This document shows positions 2,640 to 7,221 of a DNA stretch of 47,587 bases, in pieces. This DNA comes from a bacterium (GTDB taxonomy: Bacteria > Actinomycetota > Acidimicrobiia > Acidimicrobiales > Bin134), in assembly GCA_026709025.1 (NCBI GenBank), contig JAPOTT010000042.1, positions 1 to 47,587 on the forward strand, given 5' to 3'. The notes under the pieces are model-generated. The model was not told where the DNA came from, ran no database searches, and was given only the letters and a program-made list of their open reading frames with translations. The first letter of the stretch is position 1; the number at the start of each line of letters is the position of its first letter. A program made the position numbers and the translations under genes.

Positions 2640-2660
2640 GCGTAGTCGTGCGTGGGTGCC

Positions 2661-3389
2661 ATGTCTGATGAGGCTCTTGAACAACAGGTGCTGCGAATCT
2701 GGCAGACCAGGCGAGCCCGCTGGTTCTATGTGTTTTTGCGGGTTGTGGTGTTTGTGGTGGGCAGAGGCTATTTGCGAACGCAAGTAGAGGGGGCAGACAA
2801 GCTACGCCGTGCTGGCGCTTTTATCGTGGCCCCGGTGCATCGTTCTAACTTAGATGGCCCTTTGGTGAACGCTTGTTGCCCGCGCACTGTGCGTTCGCTA
2901 GCTAAGCGGGAGATGTTTGCGGGCGGTTTGGGTACTTGGATTAGTGCTATGTGTGGGTCTTTTCCGGTACGGAGGGGTGTGGGGGATAGACGTTCGTTGC
3001 AAGCGGCTATCAGTTTGTTGGAGCGGGGCGAGCCCTTGCTGGTGTTTCCAGAAGGAACCCGCCACAGCGGGCAACAGGTGGGAGATATCTTTGGTGGGGC
3101 AGCTTATTTGGCGGCTCGAGCCGGGGTGCCGATTATCCCCGTTGGCATTGCAGGTACAGAGCAGGCCATGGCACCCAAGGCCAAGTTTATGCGCCCAGGG
3201 CCCGTTTCCATTGTGGTTGGGGAACCGCTGGTGTTTGCAACAGGAGGCTCAACAGGAGGTTCAACTGCTAGGCGGCTTAGTGCAGATGTGAGGGCCGAGT
3301 TCACAGCAATGCTGCATAGAGCCATGCAAGATGCCATGGATTGTGCCTATGAGAAGGCATCAAGCCGTTTGGGTTGGAGAGCCCGTTAG
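2661..3389 (+). CDS. 1-acyl-sn-glycerol-3-phosphate acyltransferase-like protein (PlsC family)
   Basis: Membrane-associated acyltransferase expected to transfer a fatty acyl chain to lysophosphatidate or a related acceptor in phospholipid synthesis. The 242 residues carry the PlsC blocks in order: HRSNLD (HX4D, H60 and D65), GSFPVRR, FPEGTR (129-134) and VPIIPVGIAGTE. A hydrophobic segment near residues 23-36 may anchor it. Start is taken at ATG 2661; an in-frame GTG at 2652 would add three residues. Near the C-terminus a 12-bp duplication (3238-3261) encodes GGSTGGST. The following lipoprotein gene starts 15 bases after the stop, so the two may be co-transcribed. Confidence 0.88.
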   Translation: MSDEALEQQVLRIWQTRRARWFYVFLRVVVFVVGRGYLRTQVEGADKLRRAGAFIVAPVHRSNLDGPLVNACCPRTVRSLAKREMFAGGLGTWISAMCGSFPVRRGVGDRRSLQAAISLLERGEPLLVFPEGTRHSGQQVGDIFGGAAYLAARAGVPIIPVGIAGTEQAMAPKAKFMRPGPVSIVVGEPLVFATGGSTGGSTARRLSADVRAEFTAMLHRAMQDAMDCAYEKASSRLGWRAR

Positions 3390-3404: not shown

Positions 3405-5333
3405 GTGTTTCACAGCAACAGTCGGGTGACATTGGCTTTGGGGTTGGCAGGTCTGTTGCTGCTAGGTGGATGCGTTAGCGACACCGAAGTTAGCCGCACT
3501 GTAACCACACAACTTGCCGGGCCTAACTCACCTCAGCTTGCAGATGCCGTGCCGTCGGTTGGGGCTTTGGACACAGTGCCACCTCGGCCTGCTTTAGAGC
3601 CCACGTCTCAACCTACTTTGGCTGATGATCCCAGCGACAACGACGCATCACGGTTTAGAGTTAGCCAAGATCAAACCGAACAAGCTGCCCAAGAGGTACC
3701 AGAGATCACAGACGAAATAAGAGCGTCTGGCCGGGATTTTTTGAACTCGTTAACCGAAGAGTTTCACTACGTAATGGCATCCAAAATTGATGAACTGATA
3801 TGGTTAGCTCGCTCGTGGAACCCCCAGGTGAGCGTTTCAATTGCCGTTGAGCTACCCGATGGTTCCACCCATGGTTTTGTGCCTCAAGAAAGCCATTTTT
3901 CCGCTAGCTCAGCTAAGCCTTACTGGGCTGCTGCTGCTTTAGCCAACGCTGAGATAGCAGCGATACAGCCCTTTGGCGCTGAAGCCATAGTTGCCTCTAA
4001 CAATTTTGCTGCCGGTCAGTTAATTGATCTGGCTGGAGGGGTGGATGCTGTTAACAACTGGACTACAAACGTTGCGAGGCTAAGAGAAACCCGCCTAGAG
4101 GCTTGGCGGTTTGGCGATGAAAACAGGGTAGCTAGCAACTTTGATCCTGAGAATCCTTTGGGTAATCGTACTAGTACATCAGATCTTGCTCGGTTTTACG
4201 CGCGCCTTATTCGAGGGCAGCTATTGGATTCCCCGCGCACTGCTGTTTTGCGGCAATGGTTGCGTGGTACTTCTCGTTCGCTAGCCGCACCTAATGAGCT
4301 AGGCGGGGTGCTGCTGGACAGGCTGCCGCAGCAGGTAGCCGCAGCCTCGTTACACAAGGGTGGATGGTTACCCCCCGGGTGTTGTGCAGGCGAGTACCGC
4401 CATATTGTGGATGCTGGCGTAGTTGTGTTGCCGGGAGGTGGTTGGTTTTCCTTAGCTGTTTTGAGCACTCAAGGGGAGTACTTTGATCAGTCGGTTAGAT
4501 GGGTATCGCTAGCGGCATGTCGCATCTATTCTCTTATTGTTTCAGAATCAGGCATTGTTGAGGATTCAGGCATCTCTACGGGTGCAAACGTCAACTGCAA
4601 CAGGGAAGGCGACGGGGTGCATAGCCCTGCTATTTGGCCGATTGCTGATACTACAGGCGGTGGTAGTACAAGCAGCGGTTCACAAGGTGGTGCTGGGTTA
4701 GGAGATGGAACTGCACAGAACCCCAGCAATACTCCCAGCAATTCCTCTGAGGATACTTCCAGCAACCCATCTGGTAACGCTCAGCCGGTGATGTACCTCA
4801 CCTTTGACGATGGTCCTCATCCCATATACACGCCACAGGTGTTGGATGTTTTGGAAACCTATGGGGTAAGAGCAACTTTTTTTGTGTTGGGGTCGTTGGC
4901 TGAGAACTATCCAGGTTTGATACAGCGCATTTTGGATGAGGGGCACACCATCGGCAATCACACTTGGAATCATGAGCAGTTAGGGAAACTAACTCGTGTG
5001 GAGTTTGATGAAACCGTAGGGCGCACCGAGGATATATTGGGCAGCAACGGTGTGAATTGTTTGCGGCCACCTCACGGGTCGCTGAACGAGCACACTAACC
5101 AGTGGGCTGCTGCACATGGGTTGAGGGTGATGACTTGGGATTTCTCGCCTCAAGATTGGATACCGCAATCACCCACCGAGATTGCCAACAAGATTGTGGC
5201 GAACGCTCGGGATGGGGTGAACATCTTGCTTCATGATGGAGGCGGCGATCGTTCGTCTACCATTGCGGGCTTAGAAATTGCTCTTGAAGAGCTAGCCCAA
5301 AGGGGTTTTCGCTATGAGGCTGCCTGCGTATAG
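3405..5333 (+). CDS. Lipoprotein: serine beta-lactamase-like domain fused to NodB polysaccharide deacetylase
   Basis: A 642-residue two-domain lipoprotein. Residues 1-23 form a lipoprotein signal ending LLGGC (lipidated C23), followed by a disordered linker. Residues about 120-385 resemble a serine beta-lactamase/DD-peptidase-type fold, with S168-x-x-K171 (SSAK), S198-N-N and K318-G-G standing for SxxK, SDN and KTG. A Ser/Gly/Asn-rich linker (415-458) leads to a NodB domain with TFDDGP (466-471), H519xxxH523 for metal, RPPHG (554-558), D579 and LLHDGG (608-613). All NodB metal and catalytic positions look intact, so a de-N-acetylase acting on cell-wall glycan is likely. The first domain may be a peptidoglycan-binding or hydrolase domain; its activity is inference. 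Start is GTG 3405. It converges end to end with the Gmad2 lipoprotein. Confidence 0.85.
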   Translation: MFHSNSRVTLALGLAGLLLLGGCVSDTEVSRTVTTQLAGPNSPQLADAVPSVGALDTVPPRPALEPTSQPTLADDPSDNDASRFRVSQDQTEQAAQEVPEITDEIRASGRDFLNSLTEEFHYVMASKIDELIWLARSWNPQVSVSIAVELPDGSTHGFVPQESHFSASSAKPYWAAAALANAEIAAIQPFGAEAIVASNNFAAGQLIDLAGGVDAVNNWTTNVARLRETRLEAWRFGDENRVASNFDPENPLGNRTSTSDLARFYARLIRGQLLDSPRTAVLRQWLRGTSRSLAAPNELGGVLLDRLPQQVAAASLHKGGWLPPGCCAGEYRHIVDAGVVVLPGGGWFSLAVLSTQGEYFDQSVRWVSLAACRIYSLIVSESGIVEDSGISTGANVNCNREGDGVHSPAIWPIADTTGGGSTSSGSQGGAGLGDGTAQNPSNTPSNSSEDTSSNPSGNAQPVMYLTFDDGPHPIYTPQVLDVLETYGVRATFFVLGSLAENYPGLIQRILDEGHTIGNHTWNHEQLGKLTRVEFDETVGRTEDILGSNGVNCLRPPHGSLNEHTNQWAAAHGLRVMTWDFSPQDWIPQSPTEIANKIVANARDGVNILLHDGGGDRSSTIAGLEIALEELAQRGFRYEAACV

Positions 5334-6071
5334 CTAAGACCCATCTTCTAGGCGCATGGGTAACATGGTGAGTGCCGAGATACTGCCATCTGCGGCCGAT
5401 GTGGTGAAGCCAGCTAAGTTTGCCCAATCGCCAGATGCGTTTCGCGTAAACGGCAGTGGGGTTTCGAACGGCTCGTTTTCTCCGAGCGATCCGCCGTCTG
5501 CTATGGCCGAGCCCAACAGCCCGTCTTGGTCTTCTATTTCCAAGATGATTGTGCCCTCAAAGCCTCTACCCTCTCCTATCACAACCGTGTTGGCATCTAG
5601 CAGGTGGCCAGCGGCAGGTGTGCGAATCACGATGTCGGGCGATAAAGCGTGGGTGACTACCCATGTCTCAGAACCGTCTTGGAGTTGTACTTGTTGTAAG
5701 TGAATGGTGCTGGCTAATCCAAACGGGGTGCCGCCTTCTGCGATTCTGGGTAACTCAGCTGTGGCTGTGGAACCAACTTGTATTGCGGGCCGTGGTTGAG
5801 CAGCTGCGATGCCGCTGGCTATTTGGGTGGCGAAGGCCACTGCCGCTTGATCGGGAGTTTGCGGCCATACATCGGGTTCAGATCTGGGCCACACCAGCAA
5901 CTCAGGTATGGGCAACTCAGGTATGGGCAGCTCTGGCATAACCACAACAGAGGATTCAGGCACCGTGTCTGTGCTGGTATGTATCGGGCTTGTAGCTATC
6001 AGGCTGGTATTTGTGTCGCTGCTACATCCTGTCACCGCAAACAGTGCGCCGATCAGCAACACCTTTAGCAT
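5334..6071 (-). CDS. Lipoprotein with a C-terminal Gmad2 (immunoglobulin-like) domain
   Basis: Starting at ATG 6071 the protein opens MLKVLLIGALFAVTGC, a lipoprotein signal with the lipobox VTGC. A GTG at 6092 would add seven residues; neither start has a clear ribosome site. A Pro/Glu linker holds a 15-bp duplication (5898-5927) encoding repeated PELPI units. The last 100 residues match the Gmad2 pattern (immunoglobulin-like domain of GerMN-type spore germination proteins): P-x-AGHLLDANTVVIGEG, a FEGTIILEIED strand, then a DGS segment near the end. Such domains occur widely in non-sporulating actinobacteria on exported lipoproteins, so no sporulation role is implied. The stop abuts the stop of the NodB fusion with no bases between. 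Confidence 0.72.
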   Translation of the reverse strand: MLKVLLIGALFAVTGCSSDTNTSLIATSPIHTSTDTVPESSVVVMPELPIPELPIPELLVWPRSEPDVWPQTPDQAAVAFATQIASGIAAAQPRPAIQVGSTATAELPRIAEGGTPFGLASTIHLQQVQLQDGSETWVVTHALSPDIVIRTPAAGHLLDANTVVIGEGRGFEGTIILEIEDQDGLLGSAIADGGSLGENEPFETPLPFTRNASGDWANLAGFTTSAADGSISALTMLPMRLEDGS

Positions 6072-6085
6072 TGGAGGCACACTCT

Positions 6086-6111
6086 TCAACACTCGCGTCT
6101 CAACACTCGCG
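6086..6111. repeat. 12-bp direct repeat upstream of the Gmad2 lipoprotein
   Basis: TCAACACTCGCG occurs at 6086-6097 and 6100-6111, a 14-bp period, in the region just upstream of the minus-strand lipoprotein start. The GTG alternative start lies inside the first copy. It could be a doubled operator or another slippage duplication; nothing in sequence decides. Confidence 0.7.
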
Positions 6112-6225: not shown

Positions 6226-7221
6226 ATGGGCTCAAAGGTGAAGAGGGTCAAGACTGCTGTGGTTGCTGGCACGCAGCGCGGCGTAGCCAAGGCTGCTGGG
6301 ATTTCGTTGGTTGCAGTGTGGAGGGTTCGCACTCAGAGTAGGGCAGCGGTTGACAAAACTCGCGCCAGCGCTGCACAGGTGATGTCGGCGGCGCAGGCGT
6401 TGGTGTCTAGTGATTTATCTACAGATATCAACCAACTGGTGGCTGCTTCGGTGAAGGGGGCTCCAACGGTTTATGACAAGGCTATGGATGCGGCTTATCT
6501 GGATCCGGCTTTGCGTGCTGGGCTAGGTGGCAGCTACCACCGGCTGTTTGACGGAGGCCATACCATTGCTGGAGCGGTGAGAGCAGCGCAGGGTGTTTCG
6601 TCCGATGACACAGTTGTGCAGGAGGCGTTGGGCACCATAAAGGCGTTGCTGCGAGATGCATCCACGCCGAGAGGCTTGCCGTTAGCTACATGGGATAAGT
6701 CCACCTATGATTCTGTGGCGGCATCGCTGGAATCTAACTTCAACATCCCAAAAGAATGGTTCTACGAGCTGAACACCTACGATTCTGCTGATCTGCTTGG
6801 CGGTGTGATTGGTGTTGTGTCGGTGATCTATCGCTGGAACAGCGCCGACACTGAGGAGTTTGGAAGACTGGCTTGCAGCATTGGAATGTCTGCTGCGGTA
6901 AGCGCCAATCCGCTGTTGATGGTGGTTGCGATAGTGGCCATGGCTCGGGCTTTCAACAAAGCAGACAGCGCCGAAGAGTTTGCCGAGTTGATTGATGGCA
7001 GCTTCAAGGGGGCGCTGACTTCGGGTGCTAGCGTGGCCGCTATTGCGGTAGCCGGTTCAGCAGGTGCGGGTGCAGGGTTGGTGCTTGTGGTGGGGGTTAC
7101 TGCTGGTGTTCTTGCTTACAAGGTCTCTGAGAAGGTGAGCCTTGTGGCTGTGGTGCGCTTCGCTAAAGACCAAGCAACCGTGATCTTGGAGAACGTTGTT
7201 GAGACGGCTCGGTTGGCTTGA
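6226..7221 (+). CDS. Hypothetical Ala/Gly-rich membrane protein
   Basis: 331 residues from ATG 6226 with a good ribosome site (GAGGGAG, 6214-6220). No family could be named. The N-terminal 60 residues are basic and helical. A central part contains HRLFDGGH (105-112) and a PKEWFYELNTY stretch (175-185). The C-terminal half has hydrophobic segments near 188-203, 220-242 and 265-298, the last one Gly/Ala-rich and long enough for two passes. The His/Asp cluster HRLFDGGH could bind metal, but this is speculative. It precedes another membrane protein by 113 bases on the same strand. It lacks a signal peptide, so an inner-membrane protein with a cytosolic N-terminal half is most likely. Confidence 0.75.
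   Translation: MGSKVKRVKTAVVAGTQRGVAKAAGISLVAVWRVRTQSRAAVDKTRASAAQVMSAAQALVSSDLSTDINQLVAASVKGAPTVYDKAMDAAYLDPALRAGLGGSYHRLFDGGHTIAGAVRAAQGVSSDDTVVQEALGTIKALLRDASTPRGLPLATWDKSTYDSVAASLESNFNIPKEWFYELNTYDSADLLGGVIGVVSVIYRWNSADTEEFGRLACSIGMSAAVSANPLLMVVAIVAMARAFNKADSAEEFAELIDGSFKGALTSGASVAAIAVAGSAGAGAGLVLVVGVTAGVLAYKVSEKVSLVAVVRFAKDQATVILENVVETARLA

Follow-up and report, generated by a model that had tools for sequence, protein, structure and literature searches.

A beta-lactamase-like SxxK domain lacking Glu166 and a NodB deacetylase domain in one predicted lipoprotein of two sister species

Two genes that are separate in most genomes of a bacterial genus, one for a Glu166-less SxxK lipoprotein and the other for a NodB lipoprotein, have become a single gene in two sister species, and both sets of motifs have been kept. 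In the window (the whole stretch of 47,587 nt that was analysed), the fused gene is one uninterrupted open reading frame of 642 aa at 3405-5333 on the forward strand, with a GTG start, and its product most likely unites a pair of cell-envelope enzymes in a single chain. The first-pass annotation had described a lipoprotein, which agrees with the signal peptide and lipobox (LGGC, Cys23) predicted by pattern, and its positions for SxxK (168-171), SNN (198-200) and KGG (318-320) proved exact. It had also reported a full NodB set, and all five motifs are indeed present (TFDDGP at 466, HTWNH at 519, RPP at 554, DFSPQDW at 579 and LLHD at 608). We share its view that the combination is unusual, with the addition that the architecture is not an old one, the single chain having been derived from two adjacent genes; no paper on a Beta-lactamase2 and NodB domain pair was found in the literature searched.

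Table 1. Coordinates of the fused gene's parts and of its upstream neighbour in the window
Feature	Position	Strand	Evidence
PlsC-type acyltransferase, directly upstream; the conserved locus begins here	2652..3389	+	PF01553; kept upstream in relatives
Predicted lipoprotein signal peptide, lipobox LGGC, lipidation site Cys23	3405..3473	+	sequence pattern
N-terminal linker, residues 24-114, weakly conserved	3474..3746	+	residues 1-114 36% identical to the fused G035 protein
Beta-lactamase2 (PF13354)-like domain without Glu166, residues 115-412	3747..4640	+	Pfam 1.3e-11, family alignment, hhalign
SxxK, S168-S-A-K171	3906..3917	+	S and K invariant in 30/30
SxN, S198-N-N200 (SDN in most relatives)	3996..4004	+	S and N invariant in 30/30
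W234-R235 at the class A W165-E166 position, Glu missing	4104..4109	+	profile alignment, hhalign, homologue alignment
KxG, K318-G-G320	4356..4364	+	K and G invariant in 30/30; middle residue G/A/L/S
C326-C327 pair	4380..4385	+	C326 and C327 in 28/30; C372 in 29/30; C398 in 27/30
Variable Gly/Ser/Asn linker at the fusion junction, residues 413-457	4641..4775	+	3 of 18 aligned residues common to G035
NodB/CE4 polysaccharide deacetylase domain, residues 458-642 and stop	4776..5333	+	PF01522 1.1e-32; high pLDDT; Foldseek

Pfam assigned the first domain to PF13354 (Beta-lactamase2; E 1.3e-11, 44.7 bits vs a gathering score of 22 bits) and the second, behind it, to PF01522 (Polysacc_deac_1; E 1.1e-32). 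The PF13354 cut-off is exceeded in all 22 genomes of the genus, and solved class A enzymes align with the profile of the family at an E of about 5e-9. In hhalign comparisons with canonical class A enzymes (probability 98), SxxK, SxN and KxG are collinear: SASSAK pairs with the S70 motif, SNN with SDN, HKGG with DKTG and W234-R235 with W165-E166. By contrast, the curated cut-off of the NCBIfam class A family is missed by far (42.8 bits vs 200). PF00144 gave a sub-threshold match in one homologue only, and family profile searches that included the homologues returned no PBP or peptidase family for the first domain.

In class A enzymes, Glu166 activates the deacylating water. Among 30 homologues, in which class A column labels come from the alignment, the residues S70, K73, S130, N132, K234 and G236 (S168, K171, S198, N200, K318 and G320 in the window protein) are invariant, whereas Glu166 occurs in none, its position being taken by R, H, Y, N, D, S or T (R235 in the window protein). 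In the Omega-loop, R164 is kept in one of the 30 and D179 in none. Additionally, residue 235, the Thr of KTG, is A, G, L or S, most homologues having KAG and the window protein KGG, and the Asp of SDN may be replaced (SNN in the window protein and in G051, SHN in the second fused species, G035). Since both Glu166 and the KTG Thr are replaced while the acylation residues are invariant, we assign the domain, on its residues, to the SxxK acyl-transfer type and not to the class A beta-lactamases. Thus, the description of the domain as serine beta-lactamase-like holds for the fold family, by PF13354, the profile and hhalign, but does not extend to a class A enzyme; the caution that came with it, that hydrolase activity was only inferred, was well placed. 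The C326-C327 pair might form disulfides with C372 and C398.

Structure prediction was informative for one half of the protein. In the AlphaFold model of the fused protein (alignment of 11 rows), pLDDT was high in the NodB domain and mostly 30-50 in the first domain; the first domain alone (5 rows) was again mostly at 30-50, with a mean of 39.6. With this poor model, Foldseek and VIA-align returned only unrelated low-scoring chains. Consequently, the proximity of S168, K171, S198 and K318 is taken from the profile alignment.

By motif, the nearest characterised precedent is Cpe/Orf12, the cephalosporin esterase of Streptomyces clavuligerus, which has SXXK, SDN and K(A/G)G, has no Omega-loop deacylation residues, shows no beta-lactamase activity and acts as an esterase in vitro (PMC6478378). 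The window domain carries the published set, SXXK, KGG and no Omega-loop Glu, with SNN for SDN, and both are class A-like domains of two-domain proteins; however, the partner in Cpe is a ketosteroid-isomerase-like N-terminal domain, and its pathway is clavulanic acid biosynthesis. The likeness is one of motifs, and Cpe was not among the matches listed for the first domain. LRA-5, a weak PDB sequence match of the window protein, is another natural class A-fold protein without Glu166 (V166), which binds beta-lactams but barely turns them over, with negligible activity (PMC12777564). It keeps SXXK and SDN; it differs from the window protein in its intact KTG and in being a single domain with no fusion. 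Taken with the role of Glu166, the near-inactivity of LRA-5 and the esterase precedent of Cpe are the reasons for which we do not file the domain as a class A beta-lactamase.

The second domain belongs, by sequence, to the NodB/CE4 polysaccharide deacetylases, with MT1-MT5 complete, including the catalytic Asp, the metal-binding Asp-His-His and the catalytic His. By sequence and by fold it is nearest to peptidoglycan deacetylases: Foldseek matched the model to Bc1960, PdaC and SpPgdA, CE4 deacetylases of peptidoglycan GlcNAc/MurNAc, which share the five motifs at 33-34% identity but have other N-terminal parts and no beta-lactamase-like domain. The lipid-anchored NodB wall proteins BA0330 and BA0331 are also comparable, although they have no SxxK domain and were reported to lack deacetylase activity (PMC4505593). 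No export signal precedes NodB inside the fused frame. The window genome has a second NodB lipoprotein on contig C10 (L047:6949-8697, 583 aa), whose N-terminal part, not assigned to any family, holds an FG-GAP-like stretch and whose relatives adjoin the beta-lactamase-like locus in other species.

Direct kin of both halves are the neighbouring lipoproteins of relatives in the genus (L032-L035), which differ in being encoded by two genes with a short-chain dehydrogenase (SDR) between them, each with its own lipobox. The beta-lactamase-like domain is present in all 22 genomes of the genus, which contains Ca. Poriferisocius aerobius. Fused frames were found in two of them, the window genome (G000) and the separately assembled G035, a different species, where the protein has 602 aa. 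In the other 20, the SDR lies behind the beta-lactamase-like gene in 19, and NodB follows it in 17; G156 and G157 have no NodB behind the SDR within the stretch examined, and in G149 the contig ends behind the beta-lactamase-like gene. In the relatives studied in detail, the NodB protein mostly carries its own lipobox. As relatives make separate neighbouring proteins, we take the fusion of the genes to be genuine and to indicate a shared job at the cell envelope. An ortholog of the SDR is missing from G035, and the best match in the window genome lies elsewhere and reaches only 40%. Because both fused genomes thus lack it, the simplest account would be a single in-frame deletion of the SDR together with the N-terminus and signal peptide of NodB.

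The same observations dispose of an assembly or frame artefact, as the fusion recurs in a second species, the SDR is missing from both genomes and purifying selection acts on either domain. The first-pass annotation had named a frame error, together with homologues that are never joined, as a way in which it could fail; the former is excluded by G035, and as to the latter, one other species has the two domains joined and most have them separate. Between G000 and G035, identity is 66% in the first domain and 67% in NodB, the linker being hardly alignable, and dN/dS is about 0.10 and 0.17, respectively, with dS near saturation; at these values both halves appear to be kept by selection. The two genomes pair in the trees of PlsC (100/100), NodB (100/98) and, more weakly, the beta-lactamase-like domain (92/89). 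In the NodB tree, the fused domain nests among the NodB1-type genes that adjoin the beta-lactamase-like gene in relatives, which rules out horizontal capture of NodB from outside, and the second NodB of the window genome groups with the NodB2 type. Downstream in the window, a Gmad2-domain lipoprotein (5334-6092, reverse strand) is convergent with the fused gene and was not found at the locus in the relatives examined; it is followed by a 331 aa frame (6226-7221, forward strand) without a convincing Pfam match.

Within the order, 30 of 397 sampled genomes, from four families, carry the family of the first domain; across the phylum, a sample of 296 genomes yielded it only in two, both of the same order, and viral contigs held no relative. 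No fusion was seen elsewhere in the phylum, where 20 PF13354 loci, mostly with long open frames, had no NodB nearby, in a small sample queried with the NodB of the window alone that does not prove absence. The domain does have other partners. For instance, it stands behind S-layer homology (SLH) repeats in G118 (three matched stretches) and G034 (two); such frames lie at L048:5631-7115 and L049:5818-7401, the neighbours in L049 resembling, by eye, ruvA/ruvB/queA and tgt/yajC/secDF. In G149 a TAP-like alpha/beta hydrolase precedes it within a single open frame; in G164 this hydrolase is a separate gene directly upstream. The G149 frame (L106:1646-4753, 1036 aa) comprises PlsC, the TAP-like hydrolase lipoprotein and the beta-lactamase-like domain; joining TAP to this domain was a separate, second fusion, and the PlsC reading frame continues into the TAP signal peptide. 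Similarly, in G161 (L118/L033:11-1426), PlsC continues in frame, with no stop codon in between, as far as the signal peptide of the beta-lactamase-like lipoprotein, as either a real fusion or an internal start. The organism is probably sponge-associated, judging from the genus name of its named relative (Ca. Poriferisocius).

The SLH repeats, the TAP-like hydrolase and the proximity of NodB to peptidoglycan deacetylases all point to the cell envelope, and several functions could be accommodated there. The one suggested by the PF13354 match and the three motif positions, protection of the cell by an active class A beta-lactamase, we regard as highly improbable, given that Glu166 is absent from all 30 homologues, R164 and D179 from nearly all, the KTG Thr is replaced and the NCBIfam score is so far below its cut-off. 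SxxK, SxN and KxG are also the motif set of PBPs, which are not known to have Glu166, and the partners of the domain are wall-related, so that it might trim stem peptides as a DD-carboxypeptidase or endopeptidase while NodB deacetylates the glycan. Nevertheless, the best scores are with class A-type families, the only peptidase-side signal being the sub-threshold PF00144 match, and where DD-peptidases have KTG/KSG, most members have KAG/KGG; we hold this to be quite unlikely.

Invariant acylation residues with Glu166 missing would also suit a domain without turnover that recognises D-Ala-D-Ala stem peptides or beta-lactam-like molecules, by binding them or by becoming acylated, and so places NodB on selected peptidoglycan. 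The behaviour of LRA-5 (PMC12777564) and the attachment of the family to SLH repeats speak for such recognition; as Cpe shows that ester turnover is possible with this motif set (PMC6478378), we judge it unlikely, if less so than a DD-peptidase. A somewhat better, but still doubtful, prospect is that the fusion is neutral, a deletion in shrinking genomes having joined two independently acting lipoproteins with no joint mechanism. Both fused genomes, at 2.2 and 1.8 Mb, are small (vs mostly 3-3.8 Mb in relatives) and lower in local GC (55 and 53% vs 65-68% in three relatives), and in G149 a different neighbour was joined at the same locus; however, both motif sets have been kept across a long divergence, and the two genes stay close together in most of the genus.

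We tentatively prefer, over each of these, a two-step envelope-modifying lipoprotein that is not a resistance enzyme. According to this model, which is built on sequence comparison, the deletion would have removed the intervening SDR and NodB's own signal peptide, leaving NodB exportable only as part of the fused chain, and one lipid at Cys23 would anchor the whole on the membrane's outer face. Activated by Lys171, together with Ser198 and Lys318, Ser168 would form an acyl-enzyme on an ester or peptide of the envelope; without Glu166, beta-lactams would not be turned over efficiently, and the domain may act as an esterase or acyl hydrolase like Cpe/Orf12. The tethered, metal-dependent NodB would then take N-acetyl groups off the same wall glycan, and it is this pairing that would make the protein a two-step modifier. 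A more specific form, a bifunctional envelope deacylase of a lineage-restricted family, in which the SxxK domain takes off an O-acyl or D-Ala-type group (or is held by it) before NodB removes the N-acetyl from the same glycan, is conceivable, though we would not expect it.

The gene is a natural "Rosetta stone" fusion, which ties an uncharacterised Glu166-less family, present in every examined genome of its genus, to wall-glycan deacetylation and thereby makes the function of the family testable. It also calls for caution, as Beta-lactamase2 matches of this kind in metagenomes should not be annotated as resistance genes.
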